The notes below the pieces were generated by a model that did not search any database, was not told the DNA's origin, and worked only from the letters and a program-made list of their open reading frames with translations. The translations under genes were made by a program, and so were the position numbers. This document shows positions 1,257-15,666 of a stretch of DNA of 64,000 bases, in pieces. This stretch comes from Henckelia pumila (taxonomy: Eukaryota; Streptophyta; Magnoliopsida; Lamiales; Gesneriaceae), in the NCBI RefSeq assembly GCF_033568475.1, contig NC_133122.1, forward strand, positions 18,160,206 to 18,224,205. Reading direction: 5' to 3'. The stretch's first letter is position 1. Each line of letters begins with the position of its first letter.

Positions 1257-4200
1257 ATGGATAGATTTGCGGAGCTGAGAGCGGCGACCAAGACGGCGGA
1301 GCTAGTGGATGCGCACGCTCACAACATTGTGGCGCTCGACTCCGCCTTCCCCTTCCTCAACTGCTTCTCCGAGGCCGCTGGCGATGCCTTATCCTACGCA
1401 CCCCACACTATCAACTTCAAGGTTGGTGTCCAATCTGAAGTCAACTTATCAGTTTCTTGTTTGTATTCACGAGCAATCAATTCTCTGTAACTTGGCACTT
1501 CGTGATCCGATGCCAGCTTGCGATTGATTCTGGCAAAAGTATGTTTAGAAACAGTACTGACATTGCATTTCAGCATTTGTCTCCAGAACTCTAGTTATCT
1601 TCGTTCATTGTCTTTCGTGATTTCGTATCTAATTCACGTGTACGTATAGAGAAGCTTGAAAGAAATTGCCGAACTTTATGGTTTGGAGTTATCCTTGAGC
1701 GCTGTTCAAGAATATCGCGCCAACTCTGGAGTGGAGTCGATCACTGCGAAGTGCCTCAAAGCAGCTGGAATTTCTACCATTTTGATTGATGATGGACTCG
1801 AGTTAGACAAAAAACACGATATTGAATGGCACAAAGCCTTTGTACCATATGTCGGTAGGATATTGAGAATTGAACGTGTGGCCGAGCAGATTCTCGATGA
1901 GGTGAGAATGAGATACTAGTCTATTTGTTTTGAGTTTAGCTGCAACGTCCATTCAGTACACATTCGCAATAAATTTGTCTAATGAAATAAAACCACTGAG
2001 GTAGGAAATCTGAACTTTAAAGTGAACATAAAATTTTCTCAATGTTGTGTATGAGTGAATGGGTGTCCCCCTTCCCCTGGTCCTCCATTGTCACCATGAA
2101 CGGTTAAAGATAATCCTACTATCACACCATCATAAATTTCTTTGGTTAGCCATTTTATTTTTATCCTTGAATTTTATGCATTTCTAGCATCATCTTAACC
2201 TTGTTCCTTATTTCTAGTTTCTCAGTGAATCAACATTTATGCAGAATAGCTTTTCTAAAGTCCCACTTCTTTATTCATCAATTGATGGTTCTTCAGATAT
2301 GTATTTAATTTCTACTGTGAATCCTAATTAGGGCAGTGCTAGTGGGACATGGACACTGGACTCATTTACAGAAATATTTGTGGAGAAATTGAAGTCATAT
2401 CCTTTCCATTTATTTAATATCTGTGAAACACCATCTTTGGGACCAAGTGCTGTGATTCTGCAATTAATCATTAGGTTCTTTATTGACATCCTTATCTAAC
2501 ACCACTCAAGCTGATAAGATTGTCGGCTTTAAAAGTATAGCTGCATATCGCAGTGGACTTGAAATTAATACAAAAGTCTCAAAGAAAGATGCTGAAGAGG
2601 GCCTTTATGATGTTTTGCAAGGTATGCCTTTCATACTGGATATGTGATGTAACCTGAGTTTTCAAAGAAGTATGATAGTTTTATGTTTCCAGCTGGAAGT
2701 CCTATTCGTATCAAGAACAAAAACTTTATCGATCACATCTTCATTCATGCATTGGAGGTTGCCCAACGGTTTGACTTGCCGATGCAGATACACACAGGGT
2801 AACGATTAATGAATATCAGAATATGTTTTCTTTGTGTGTTTTAATTTTAACTCAGTGATTTCAACGATTACAATACACCATTGCTTCAACAATCGACTAA
2901 CTTTTTAATTGGTTATCGTTAGCTTTGGTGACAAAGATCTGGATCTGAGGCTATCCAATCCCCTTCATCTTCGTAGTCTTCTCGAGGACAGTAGATTCAG
3001 GAAGTGTAGACTTGTGCTTCTGCACGCGTCTTACCCATTTACTAAGGAAGCGTCATTTTTGGCCTCTGTGTACCCTCAGGTGAGGTCATGAAGTTTTCAT
3101 GATGCCTATAAATAAGTCCACAACATAAGAGTCACATGTTTATCTTTGGAAACCTTCTGCTGTAGGTCTATCTGGACTTTGGGCTGGCAGTTCCCAAACT
3201 TAGCTTTCACGGGATGCTATCCTCGGTGAAAGAGCTCTTGGAGCTAGCACCAATAAAGAAGGTGAACTTCACCTACTTCTGTATATGTTCAATGATTAGA
3301 TTTTGCAGTCTTTGAATGTGATTTTAATAAAGAAAACACATGAATATTTCTGAATTCCAGGACCATAATAACTAGCTCTGTTTTAGCATTCTAGCCATTA
3401 GACGGAATTTTCATGTTCTCCTAAAACTTGAAAATAAGTGTTTTGTCACTTTCAGGTAATGTTCAGCACTGACGGGTATGCATTTCCTGAGACCTTTTAT
3501 TTAGGTTGGTCGGTTTGAACCTTGTATTGTGCCCTCTATCACATGAAACTATTCCTTGAGAACTTAATTATGTTTCTAATAATTCCAGCTGTGTAGCTTC
3601 CAGCTTTGCTTTGCTATAACAGAATATGATGTTTGCTTGTTGCAGTAGCAACCTCTTCTAGGAATAATACCTCATTTTATAATGGACCAAAATGAAATGG
3701 CATAGATGCAAAATGGCTCTTCAATGTCTCTCAATCATCATGGCCGATATTTTGGTCCGAATGAGGAATGGAAGTGGATTTTTAGATTTTGAATAAAAAC
3801 TTTCTTTCATTGTGGGCAATGCTTTGAAGTTTGGTTGATTAATTACTCATACATTCCCATGTTCTACACTTTGTTATAATAGAATACAATGGAAATCTGT
3901 AGAATTGAGCAGATTCAATAATTTTTTGATTGCTTTTTTGGGCATTTTGTGAGATTATAATTGCTTAGGTTTTCGTGGTGATAATTGTTTTTCAGCAATT
4001 TTGTCTTTAATTAGCATTTGAAATTTGGTGTGATTACCTGGGTAGGTGCAAAAAAAGCTCGGGAGGTTGTATTTGCTGTTCTGCGAGATGCATGCATTGA
4101 CGGAGATCTTTCAATTCCAGAAGCTCTTGACGCTGTTAAAGATATATTCTCCAAAAATTCACTAGAATTGTACAAGATTAAAGCTGCTTCAATGTCTCTT

Positions 4201-7200
4201 GATTTGGATAAGATGACAGGCTCTTCCTTTCTGAAGATAGATGACTATGTCCCCACCCAACATATTACTTTTGTTCGTATTGTTTGGGTTGATGCTTCTG
4301 GGCAGCATAGATGCCGCGTAAGAATTTTACCTTTGAAATTATTTATATTTCACTGGAAGCTTCATTGTCCTGAAGTTTTTTTTATCATCTTTCTACTCTC
4401 TCTAGTTTCAAAATAAATCCTACGCTTTTATTAGAACTTTTATGAATTAGAATGTTGAATAGAACTTTATTTCAAAGAAATGTACATATTACAAAATTTT
4501 GATGGTCATCCATGATTACTTCCTATGTATCACCAAGATATAACAAAGATCAAAGGTTCTTTTTCAGAGAGCTTCATGCTTTGGTTTTGTAACTAGCCTG
4601 CTAAAGTAGGGAGAAAAAATCACGATTCTATAATAATTGTGTTTCGGTAAATTGGTTGATTGCATAAATGTTGTGTGGTTAGAAAAGTTGAGAAATACTG
4701 AAAGAAAGATGCCCAGAAATGACTTGCGTTAAAGGACTGTTTTTGAGTTTTTTTATTTGTAGTTCCAACACCATTTAGGTAATGCACTGTAAGCATGCTT
4801 TGTGCTTCTATCTTCACCATTTATTTCAACGAGTCTGATTAATTCTTTTTATAGCTTTTGGAATGATAATCATGCACGCTTATTCTCTTGACAGGAATTT
4901 ATAATGCAACTTTATTCTGATATTGTCGGTGTTTTACATGTTAGGTTGTTCCTAAAAAACGCTTTTATGATCTTGTTACAAAGAATGGTGTCGGTCTAAC
5001 CTGTGCATCCATGGGGATGTCCTCACACATGGATGGTCCGGCTGATGAGACTAATCTAAGTGGAGTTGGTGAAATCAGACTCATACCTGCTATGCAAACC
5101 AAATGCCAGATTCCATGGTCTGAAGTTTCTCTTTATTCTCACCCTTGGTCCTTTGTTGTGGATGTGTGGGTGTGTGTCAAAAAAGTTATATTTACATGTG
5201 TGTGAGTGTGTCTTGGGAAGCATAAATATTTAATGATCTTACCTGCTTTTAACTGAAAAAAATAGAAGAGTGGACATCCTGATTGTATGTAATTGATTTT
5301 GATGACATCCTTAGAGTGAGGTTCATAAGGTACTAATAAAGCATAAAGTTAGTTTTCCTCTAAGTTGAGCTGCATAATACATGAATTTATGTATATTTTG
5401 TATGGTACTTTATGGCCCTAGCACCATTTTTCTAATGTGTTCACAACTTCACTATCTCTATCTGGAAAGTAAGCTCTGTTGCTCCATGGAACGAGGAACG
5501 CACATAAATAGCAATCAATAAGACGGATGGAAGGGAAAATAACCGTGATTTAACTTTGAAGCTAAAGTAGAAGAAGGTATATTGCTGACTTGGTGTGTAT
5601 TTTCCTATGATTTTACTTTCACACAGGGCAAAAGACCAGGAGATGGTTCTGGCCGATATGCAACTTAAACCTGGAGTACCATGGGAGTATTGCCCCAGAG
5701 AGGCGCTGCGAAGAGTTTCTAAAATTTTAAGAGATGAATTTAACTTGGTAATATCTGATCGCTTTTCCGGAATTTTTGAATTTTTGTATTATTTTATGCC
5801 AAACTTCTAGTCATGCAGGTAATGAACGCAGGATTTGAGAATGAGTTTTATCTCTTACGCAGTATGCTGGTGTATGTTTGAAGATCTTGTGATTTCTTCA
5901 TTATTCCAATTTCCAAGTTTCCTTGTGCATTGTTTGTAATTTGTAGTGAATCATGTAGGGATGGCGAGGAAAAATGGGTACCATTTGACAAAACACCTTA
6001 CTGCTCCACATCGTCATTTGATGCTGCTTTCCCTGTACTTCAAGAAATCGTTTCTTCTCTACAGTCCTTGAATATTGTGGTGGAGCAGGTATGTAGAAAT
6101 TATTGCTTTGGGCCATTTTGCATGGGTTGCTCTGGATGTTCATATGATTGGGGTGAATGTATGCTCTGACTATCATGAGTCGGACACGCTTATTAATATG
6201 ATATTGAAGCTGTAAGTCTATCTTGGGAGTCCTGCATATGTGCTTGAAAACATGTTCTGGCCTTGGATATTTAATTTCTGGTCTGATATGTTGAGCTTAT
6301 TAGAATGATTGTAGAATTGATTATCTTCCTATGTACCAAAACCAGCCTCTCGGTTGATAGGCGGTTTTCCTGGTAAATTGTCATCATGATCCGTGGCCTT
6401 TGTTTTCTCCTTTAAACCTCTTTGGGTTTTCTCCTAGAAAAGTTGAAATTTTTTTTATCCTACTATTCTCGTCTATTTATTTTTGTTTAACCAGTGACTC
6501 TTGGATCAATAAATTTGTTTACATTAAACTATATTTTACTGAAATAATGGCTAGGTATAATTTCAAAAACATAAAATTTTCTTATTATGTTCTACGTTCG
6601 AAAATTTTACAGGTGCATGCAGAAGCTGGGAATGGTCAATTTGAATTTGCGTTGGGCTACACAAACTGTGAGGCAGCAGCTGACAACTTAGTTTTCACTC
6701 GTGAAGTTGTTAGAGCTGTGGCAAGAAAACATGGATTGTTGGCGACATTTGTGCCCAAGTAAGTGTCGATGAAATATACTTTACATGCCTCATCAAGCAA
6801 TTTTTCTTTGTTTGCATTAGGCATTTGGTAAGGATTGAATGTAGGGGAGTTTGTAATATTTTTTGTTTTAATATGATAAATTGATAATGGCTCAATGTCT
6901 CATAGGAGATTCTTGAAATCGTGAGTTTTGAACACAACTTAAGTAAGCACATGATTAAGAATGTTAAGCATCTGATTTATTGAGAGTACATGCCATATTT
7001 GGGAGAAACATATGCCTTGGCAAGCTTTGTGTTTTGCATGGCATTTTTTGTTAACATAGATAGGTGCATAATTATGGTCAATTGTTGTTTAAATGAGGAA
7101 ATGGAAGGGCTTCAAAACTAAGAAATGAACGTCTTTGCTTTTCAAGATTCCACTCTCACGAAAATGCAAGCTAAATATCATAATCGGAAATACATTTGTA

Positions 7201-9054
7201 CCTTCAGAACTTGATGTGGCAGCTGCGGCTAGTTGGTTACAGATGGCCCTTACAGGACATATGCTGTCTCTGTCACGCATCTCCTTTCTCGAAAATAAGT
7301 TTATGTAATCCCCTCCCTTTCCTTCTAGGTACTCACTGGACGATATTGGCTCTGGTTCACATGTGCACATAAGTTTGTCTGAGAATGGAGAAAATGTATT
7401 TATTGCGCATGGGGGATCAACTAAATATGGAATGTCCGAGATTGGGGAGGAGTTCATGGCCGGAGTATTGAACCATCTTCCTTCTATATTGGCATTTACT
7501 GCACCAGTTCCAAACAGGTTTCTGTTTTATACTTCACATGTATAGTTGACGTTACTTCCTATTATCCATATGCTGTCCTTGGGTTTGAACTTTTTTACTT
7601 CTCCTCTTAATATGTGTAGTAGACCACTTGGTGTTTTCTTGCTTTAACTCATCCAAAATAATGACATTAAGTGTTTTCTGTCACCTGATGTGAAAATAAT
7701 AAACTGCTGTAATGCACCGATGTTTGTCGACTTGTATGTTTGGGGGTGTATTTGTGCACAGTCCGTGCTTGGCTCCAAGTCTTTATGTAGATTCTTGCGT
7801 GCTTTTCCTCACATTTTTACATACATTGTTTGGAACAACGATTCTTCTCACGCTAACATTGCAACTTTATTGTCCCAGATCAGCAGACATTGCTTAAAAT
7901 TTCAATTTAGAATGTGGCATTTCTTCATATATTCAAAGGCACACAACACGAGAATGATAAATATGGTTATCCGTAATATATTCTTCACGTGTTCTAAATG
8001 GAAATAATAAGTTATGATTCGCTCAAACTCATTCTTTTCAAATGTCAAAATCCTCTAGTTATGATCGACTTCAACCTAACATGTGGAGTGGAGCATATCA
8101 TTGCTGGGGACCGGAAAATAGAGAAGCTCCCTTGAGAACTGCTTGCCCACCAGGGACCCCCAGTGGCTCTGTAAGCAACTTTGAGATAAAGGTAGTGGAT
8201 GGTTGTGCAAATCCTTATCTGGCCCTGGCCTCTGTACTTGCTGCTGGAATTGACGGCCTTCGTAGGCATAGTAGTTTGCCTGAACCAATTTGTAAGTACT
8301 CTTTAACTTATCTATTTTGTTGGGACTATCACTCAATCAAAATTTTGAGGTTGTTGCAAGAATAAAAGATTTGAGGTTGCACGTTATATCAACTGTTTTT
8401 TCATACAATGGCTAGTTTGCTAACGCTTGGCTCTATATGAGATGTTGCTGACTTCCATTGCTCTGACTGAAGTTAGCATTTTGTCTAATTCTGCTCCATA
8501 TTTCATTTCTCCTTGAAAGGTGACAATCCTGATAATTTCAAAGATAAAGTTCAAAGGCTGCCAAAGTCGCTTTCTGAATCTGTAGAAGCACTTGAAAAAG
8601 ACCAAGTGATGAGAGCTTTGCTTGGTCAAAAGCTGTTGGTTGCCATAAAAGGAGTCAGGAAGGTACATACCAAGTATTTCTTGCTTTGATGTGCATAAAA
8701 TTTCAAGATCATTTGTTTTTATGAGGTGTTTGCAAACAGCAGTAAATAATTTGAACAGCTTGTGTTCTTAAGCTGGCATGCATTGCTAGCTTTCCTGCTG
8801 TTACAATCACCAATGAGAGAATACAGAAATCTGATAACTTCTTACGACAGAATGAAGATGATCCATGTGCAAGTATTTACTCTATATGCACGGTTTTAAC
8901 CATACATTCCAGATCCGCGTTTACGTTGTATAAATATCTTTCTTGCTCAGAAACTCAGCAAAAAAGTTGACTATAATTTCCTATGGTGCAGGCTGAGACC
9001 AAGTATTACTCTGAAAACAAGGATGCCTGGAAGAATCTTATTCACAGATATTGA
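1257..9054 (+). CDS. NodGS: NodGS / FluG-like protein: amidohydrolase fused to type-I glutamine synthetase
   Basis: Exons: 1257-1421, 1650-1901, 2332-2396, 2506-2621, 2693-2798, 2923-3079, 3166-3261, 3456-3504, 4046-4317, 4945-5117, 5627-5747, 5819-5871, 5947-6088, 6613-6758, 7329-7517, 8059-8291, 8520-8662, 8992-9054. All phases agree and give 846 residues, the usual length of plant NodGS (Arabidopsis At3g53180). The N-terminal half is an amidohydrolase/nodulin-6-like domain: VDAHAH metal motif near residue 19, then IHTGFGDKD and the MFSTDG aspartate. The C-terminal half from about residue 430 is a prokaryote-type (GSI) synthetase domain with GSGSHVHLS and NFEIKVVDG. Plant members are cytosolic, linked to root development and microbe responses; whether they make glutamine is doubtful. 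All introns are GT-AG except intron 3 (2397-2505), which fits AT-AC. The start of exon 13 could instead be 5956. Confidence 0.94.
2397..2505 (+). other. Probable U12-type AT-AC intron in NodGS
   Basis: The intron starts ATATCCTTT, the exact U12 AT-AC donor consensus. It ends CAC, with TCCTTATC (2489-2496; consensus TCCTTAAC) placing the branch A about 11 bases from the 3' end, the usual distance. Splicing here joins AAG-TC to T-CAA and gives LKSQADKIVGF, as expected for the family, in phase 2. I found no GT-AG pair nearby that keeps this frame. It is inferred from sequence only. Confidence 0.85.
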
Positions 9055-13425: not shown

Positions 13426-15666
13426 ATGGCTTCTTCTGGTCTGGGGCAGAGCAACTACGATCTGTCTTTCAAGATCTTGCTCATCGGAGACTCTGCTGTC
13501 GGCAAAAGCAGTCTGCTTGTTAGTTTCATCTCTAATGTTGTCGACGATCTTTCGCCCACCATTGGTAATGATTCTGCGTTTTTCTTGGCTCCGAGTTTTG
13601 CTTCTTGTTGTCTGGTTCATCGAGCTAAGAAGGTTATAACTTATAGATTTTGGGATGTTGGGTTTTTGGCAGAAAGTGATGTTGATTATATCATGGGTTT
13701 GATTGATCCAGTTACTTATGAGATTACTTTGATGTTTGGATGATTTGATAGGGCTTTGGTTCCCATGTGTCCAAAATGACTTTTACCAAAAGTACTCGAT
13801 TATGATAAGTGGTCTACTTGTGCACATCTCCACACATGTAATTAAGCTGTATATATGCTGGGAATCAAAATCTGAGACATACACGTGAATTTGGTTGATT
13901 TTAAGTACCATCTTCATGAAGAATGATGGGAATCGCATGTGCTTAGTATTGGGCAATAAAGACTGGTTTTGTTTTGCTTGTTAGAGTTCTTTGTATCTTG
14001 CTTAGGATGGTGAGTGAAAATGTGATATGAGTAACTTCTACTGCTTCTTGTTCAATTGGTGGTGATCTAACTTTTGCTTTGATCTTAATTCTCTATCTTG
14101 TACAAGCTTTGAGTTGAGTTGAGTTGAGTTTGCACTTCTGGCAAATGCATAAAATATGCTGAAGCTGTTAGTTTGCAGGATATAATGCAACCAAAAACTA
14201 CATCGTCCATGTTTCCGGCTTCCGGATTGTCTTGAATTCGTAAAACTCATGTGTCCTTTTCCTTTGAACCCCTTGTGTGCATAAAACTATTGCATTATTT
14301 TTTCATTGTTATGTTTTGGATGATTCAGTAAGCTTTATATTCTATTTATACTTACCACACTGTGATTCGACTAGGTGTGGATTTTAAGATCAAGTTTCTC
14401 ACAGTTGGAGGGAAAAGGCTGAAGCTTACAATTTGGGACACGGGTACAGAAAGATCTTTGCAATTGTTCGACTTGAAATTTCCTTTAGGATTTTCCTTTT
14501 AAAAACACTTCACAAAAAAAATGTCGGTTCAAGAAACATGGCTTTTCCTTCTTTGTAATGCTAGATTGTAATGTCTTTTCAGCTGGACAAGAGAGATTCA
14601 GAACATTGACGAGCTCGTACTATAGAGGTGCTCAAGGGATCATTCTCGGTGAGTTACAGACGGATCAAAATTACTTGTCATTTCATGAAATTTTGTCTCT
14701 AATATTCCACCATGCTGATTTTCTCTATGAAGCAGAATCATTTTGTTTAGGAACTAGTTTTTACAGTGTGTGCATATTTATGAACAATTTGGTTTAAATG
14801 CATTTTCTTCTAGTTCTTGTCCTCGGTCATTCATTGATTAGCATTCGGAATTTTCTCCAGTGTATGACGTGACGAGAAGGGACACATTCACAAACTTGTC
14901 GGATGTGTGGGCGAAAGAACTGGAGCTCTACTCCACCAACGAAAATTGCGTCAAGATGCTTGTCGGAAATAAAGTTGATATAGTAAGTAAATGTGGTTTT
15001 GGTCTTTGTGAGGCTCGTTCTTGTTTCTTCTCTCATCTTTGGGGACCATTTCAGGAATCAGAACAAGTAGTGAGCAGAGAAGAAGGGCTTGCCCTGGCGA
15101 AAGAGCTTGGCTGTCTATTTCTTGAATGCAGCGCTAAAACTCGAGTAAATGTGGAGCAATGTTTTGAAGAACTCACGCAGAAGGTAAGCAAATACACGTT
15201 ACTTAAGTTTTGTTCTTAAGAATACAGCTCTAGATCTCGCTTATGGTGACGTTAAACAGTTGAGTCGTGCACAAGAAAGCTTTTATTTTTAAGAATACAA
15301 CTCTAGCTCATGAGCTCCATATATAAAAAAAATACCGGTAATATTTTATGTAACTTCATCGTTATATTATATTTATTAACATAATTTTATTTATCATATG
15401 ATATTTAATATTAATTTTGAGCTGGCGATCTCAGCTATAAAAAGCCCAAGCTTATGGAAATTAAGTTGATACTTGTGGCTCGACTCACGTTATGCGGCTT
15501 GCCCCTGTCTAAACCGTACTTACCAGGGCGTTGTTGAATGTTCTTTTTCCAGATTATGGAGGTTCCTCGACTTCTCGAAGAAGGGTCAACTGTAGTAAAG
15601 AGAAATATCTTAAAAAAGAATCAAGAACAGCGGACGCCGCCTAACAGCGGTTGTTGCTCCTCCTAG
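13426..15666 (+). CDS. RABC2A: RABC2a-like small GTPase (Rab18 class)
   Basis: Exons: 13426-13564, 14375-14443, 14583-14648, 14861-14982, 15055-15183, 15553-15666. They join in phase to 212 residues. All GTPase motifs are present: P-loop GDSAVGKSS at residues 21-29, effector PTIGVDFKIK, WDTAGQERFR, GNKVD, and ECSAKT. The C-terminus [12 protein letters not shown]...GCCSS carries the double cysteine for geranylgeranylation. The KIMEVP and VKRNILK segments match Arabidopsis RABC2a better than RABC1. Plant RABC2 binds myosin XI tails and is associated with peroxisomes and vesicle traffic; this is family knowledge. The ATG follows a GA-rich leader, and the MASSGxGQSxYDLSFK start matches relatives. 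No damage is seen. Confidence 0.95.

Follow-up and report, generated by a model that had tools for sequence, protein, structure and literature searches.

A probable U12-type AT-AC intron in a plant NodGS gene

U12-type introns are excised by the minor spliceosome (reviewed in PMC3584512). Among them, introns with AT-AC ends commonly combine a ATATCCTT donor with a TCCTTAAC-like branch word placed 10 to 15 bases from the AC end; the lack of a clear pyrimidine tract, a non-zero phase, and the occurrence of one such intron among many of the GT-AG type are also common (consensus in PMC3488318). Minor introns are in addition biased in phase and toward early gene positions (PMC10639083). AT-AC splice pairs number 66 (0.05%) in the annotation of Arabidopsis Nd-1 (PMC5716242). 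We describe intron 3 of a plant NodGS gene, located in the 64-kb stretch of DNA that was analysed as a whole (the window), which is very probably a phase-2, 109-nt U12-type AT-AC intron. Its phase and early position agree with the published biases; it differs from the common pattern in that T replaces the second A of the branch word. The features, in window positions, are as follows.

1257..9054, + strand: NodGS coding region, 18 exons joined in frame, 842 codons and a stop
2332..2396, + strand: NodGS exon 3, 65 nt, ending in ...VEKLK and two bases of S161
2397..2505, + strand: intron 3 of NodGS, 109 nt, phase 2, candidate U12-type AT-AC intron
2397..2405, + strand: 5' splice site ATATCCTTT
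2489..2496, + strand: branch-site-like word TCCTTATC, a 7/8 match to TCCTTAAC
2503..2505, + strand: 3' splice site CAC, 11 nt past A2494
2506..2621, + strand: NodGS exon 4, 116 nt, starting with the last base of S161 and then QADKIVGFKSIAAYRSG

The exact donor, the CAC 3' end, and the near-consensus branch site named in the original prediction are all present at these positions. Bases 2397 to 2404 are identical to the donor consensus and are followed by T as the ninth base; donor base +5 is C. The sole mismatch of the branch word is a T where the consensus has its second A, and A2494 is therefore the expected branch point and likely the branch nucleotide. Either A of the consensus word can be used in U12-type branch sites (PMC3584512). 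The predicted spacing of 11 bases is right when counted from A2494 to the last intron base (2505), and this distance falls in the published optimum of 11 to 13 nt (PMC3584512). The 3' end, ...ACATCCTTATCTAACACCAC, is an AC end preceded by no clear pyrimidine tract, as judged by eye. It lies in a CACCAC sequence (2500-2505), which contains another in-frame AC end three bases upstream, at 2502, 8 nt past A2494; this is a possible alternative 3' splice site with a one-residue difference.

The exon ends of the gene were assigned manually, guided by splice sites and frame. In this model 16 of the 17 introns are GT-AG, intron 3 being the sole exception, and its excision, which rejoins the split codon 161, leaves a frame open over 842 codons. 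The N part of the protein matches PF04909 (Amidohydro_2; 8.6e-17) and the C part PF00120 (Gln-synt_C, the glutamine synthetase catalytic domain; 2.1e-92) in Pfam, an N-terminal amidohydrolase fused to a GSI-like ligase. The domain order and both main Pfam domains are those of plant NodGS and fungal FluG, and the protein shows nothing unusual in this comparison; Gln-synt_N_2, at 31.9 bits, does not reach its cut-off of 35.7 bits. The PDB match of the N part is the TIM-barrel hydrolase 2qpx, presumably the same protein as the Lactobacillus paracasei amidohydrolase or a sister of it. The N part of FluG has itself been likened to the L. paracasei enzyme (PMC6478659).

Retention of intron 3 leads to a stop after 194 codons, within the amidohydrolase part, so excision is needed for the full NodGS; stops likewise arise when exon 3, exon 4, or the two together are skipped. 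No second full copy was found in the genome with the first 426 residues as the query, since 8 of the 10 matches are the gene's own exons and the remaining 2 are short and weak pieces elsewhere. Joined exons 2 to 5 matched only the gene's own four exons, and no retrocopy with a spliced exon 3/4 junction was found in this way. We take At3g53180 to be the Arabidopsis NodGS; among the papers found to mention it, judged by their titles, none concerned U12 introns. The next gene downstream in the window (13426-15666, + strand) resembles, by eye, a Rab-type small GTPase.

The Pfam amidohydrolase match covers residues 216 to 380 and falls short of the junction, and a bacterial profile was therefore built instead. 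One pattern-seeded scan of a prokaryote genome collection gave 46 loci, 45 of them cyanobacterial and one from Chloroflexi by title. These intron-free loci mostly show 40 to 45% identity across most of the NodGS N part. The profile comprises the 40 open reading frames longer than 340 aa, leaving out two loci that were too short (L064 and L067) and four with no open reading frame by the rule used (L041, L058, L061, and L065). In pairwise alignment, 43 of the 46 loci extend across residues 150 to 175 and so span the junction; 37 of these are ungapped at residues 155 to 172, and 6 have a gap near the junction. The 2qpx protein also aligns through the junction, with small gaps just ahead of it.

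Scored against this profile were the 135 open products of alternative junctions in the region (26 GT-AG, 5 GC-AG, 36 AT-AC, and the rest mixed pairs). The product of AT-AC excision at 2397-2505 ranks second with 388.6 bits, 0.1 under a GT-AC pair at 2394-2502 (388.7 bits). The bacterial profile thus points to a junction at this place, without single-base resolution. The exact junction is fixed by the splice signals, because the GT-AC combination is disfavoured and the donor of that pair, GTCATATCC, looks like none of the donor consensus sequences known to us. The disfavour of GT-AC among U12-type introns is described in PMC3584512. The claim that AT-AC excision restores both the frame and the conserved sequence is borne out, as the joined protein fits the bacterial homologs.

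Three other ways of removing this sequence were weighed. The same U12 donor could be used with the first CAC of the pair, so that 2397-2502 is excised and the protein gains one threonine, in the main or an alternative product. Both AC ends of CACCAC are in frame and this product still reaches 385.0 bits, 3.6 bits worse than that of 2397-2505; its branch-to-end distance of 8 nt lies under the published optimum (PMC3584512), and we hold this choice very unlikely.

Excision of a nearby GT-AG intron by the major spliceosome, such as 2342-2474 or 2423-2510, would yield a different protein. The original prediction had found no GT-AG choice that restores the frame and the conserved sequence; this is too strong, because 26 GT-AG pairs keep the frame open, though the best of them on the bacterial profile (2423-2510, 378.3 bits) fits 10.3 bits worse than AT-AC 2397-2505. 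A small splice-site matrix was made from the 16 GT-AG introns of NodGS itself (leave-one-out range, 1.6 to 14.4). By this matrix the best GT-AG pairs, 2342-2540 with 6.5 and 2342-2474 with 5.8, lie in the lower part of the range of the real introns, 2 of 16 of which are lower. On the protein side, 2342-2474 reaches 377.7 bits and deletes the FxxxFxxxL stretch of exon 3, present (as L or I) in the relatives, and 2342-2540 deletes GFKSIA and is absent from the best 60 of the 135 products. It is protein conservation rather than splice signals that speaks against the GT-AG alternatives, which on this comparison appear extremely unlikely.

Removal of the AT-AC intron by the major spliceosome has a close to negligible chance: U2-type AT-AC introns are known (PMC2831892, PMC8280824), but in sodium channel genes every such intron carries G at +5 (PMC2831892), where intron 3 has C, and intron 3 carries a U12-like branch word at U12 spacing with, by eye, no clear pyrimidine tract before its AC.

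The motifs were also compared with chance. The donor pattern [AG]TATCCTT occurs four times in the window (4 on the + strand and 0 on the - strand), and only that of intron 3 is accompanied, within 3000 nt, by a branch-like word (≤1 mismatch) with the matching end in range. The window was also resampled 150 times under a first-order Markov model and read on both strands; a chance candidate was defined as an exact 9-mer donor with a branch word of ≤1 mismatch within 300 nt and an AC 9 to 15 nt after the word's first A. The 10 comparable candidates found correspond to ∼1.5e-4 per 290-nt one-strand stretch, before any frame requirement. Genome-wide (884.7 Mb), the motif pair gave 4 matches, intron 3 included, against 4 in the reversed control; another spacing range, outside which intron 3 falls, gave 7 against 5, and the consensus branch word 24 against 10, a count inflated by near-identical repeat copies and double-listed places. 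Genome-wide motif frequency was rejected as support, the reversed control being about equally frequent. At this chance level the motifs alone cannot identify such introns here, and the U12 case rests on the place of the intron in the gene, that is, on frame and homology.

Components of the minor spliceosome are matched in the same genome. Above Rfam cut-offs there are one match to U12, one to U11, and three to U6atac. An exact GTCCCACATCG, which we take to be the plant snRNA promoter element, lies upstream of U12, U11, and one U6atac (at -76, -78, and -66, respectively). The third U6atac match (C77:6903317-6903454) is weaker (54.5 bits), lacks a GTCCCACATCG-like element (up to 2 mismatches allowed) in the preceding 120 bases, and is possibly a pseudogene. 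U4atac was not found in the genome, and the miss is no evidence of absence because the same search matched in no genome at all. The genome also holds a match to the CCDC84/CENATAC family and one to the U11-48K zinc finger (zf-U11-48K), the latter family being matched as well in one archaeal genome among the 14 controls. CENATAC is reported to promote the splicing of AT-AN minor introns in human cells (PMC8280824).

The snRNAs can pair with the elements of intron 3. For U11 the pairing capacity with donor positions +3 to +9 is 7 contiguous pairs, one of them a wobble; for U6atac it is 6 contiguous pairs with +4 to +9; and GUAAGGA of U12 can pair with UCCUUAU of the branch region, the last pair being a G-U wobble. 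The analysis establishes the sequence elements, the frame, the homology across the junction, and the snRNA genes with their pairing capacity; we infer actual use of the intron, its branch nucleotide, and its spliceosome class. The U11/U12 di-snRNP would bind intron 3 as a unit, with U11 base-paired to the donor starting at +3 and U12 to TCCTTA, and U6atac would then take the place of U11 at the donor. A2494 would attack A2397, and exon joining after the CAC that ends at 2505 would complete the serine codon. Intron 3 shows no departure from the known mode of minor-spliceosome removal, and the U12-type AT-AC reading of the original prediction is the best of those tested on donor, branch spacing, the C at +5, phase, early position in NodGS, snRNA pairing, and homology.

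The bacterial loci also bear on the origin of the gene. At 25 of the 46 loci, the amidohydrolase gene is preceded on its own strand, within the 1.5-kb flank, by a GS-like gene, an order opposite to that of the domains in NodGS. A 26th locus (L067) has a short weak GS-like match only, and 20 loci have no GS-like match upstream, two (L023 and L064) with shorter upstream flanks. Because fungi also have FluG-like proteins and other bacteria also carry paired genes (PMC6478659), a plastid ancestry does not follow. If the gene is of bacterial origin, the intron would be a later gain. Gains of U12 introns are very rare, a single clear-cut case having been reported (PMC2831892), and in PMC2834692, which treats introns following endosymbiotic transfer, the main text contains none of the terms 'U12', 'minor spliceosom', and 'AT-AC'. 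A fuller scenario, in which the intron was gained as U12-type after a bacterial amidohydrolase/ligase pair had entered the eukaryotic nucleus, and in which the lone-A branch word and CACCAC make retention a dosage switch for NodGS, appears rather unlikely.

A piece resembling part of the gene was also seen elsewhere in the genome. Related copies stand in open frames of 255 to 653 aa at five places (L101, at C1:70080835-70081152; L102; L103; L104; and L105 with L108), and four of them share 88 to 92% identity with the first along most of its length. In the two that were compared with NodGS (L015 and L017), the piece looks like part of exon 9 joined to exons 12-13 without introns, at 49 to 57% identity; a repeat may have captured it as a spliced gene fragment.

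Intron 3 of NodGS is one more case of the U12-type AT-AC introns, a known minor class in plants. It has been proposed for the class that slow removal of U12 introns restrains expression (PMC3488318), and slow removal of intron 3 might have such an effect. The intron model yields the coding structure of NodGS in the plant studied. Ab initio gene callers miss noncanonical splice sites (PMC5716242), in line with the warning in the original prediction, and those limited to GT-AG would likely break NodGS at residue 161. Should other plants share the intron and fungal FluG lack it, it could date the gain of a U12 intron in a gene of bacterial ancestry.
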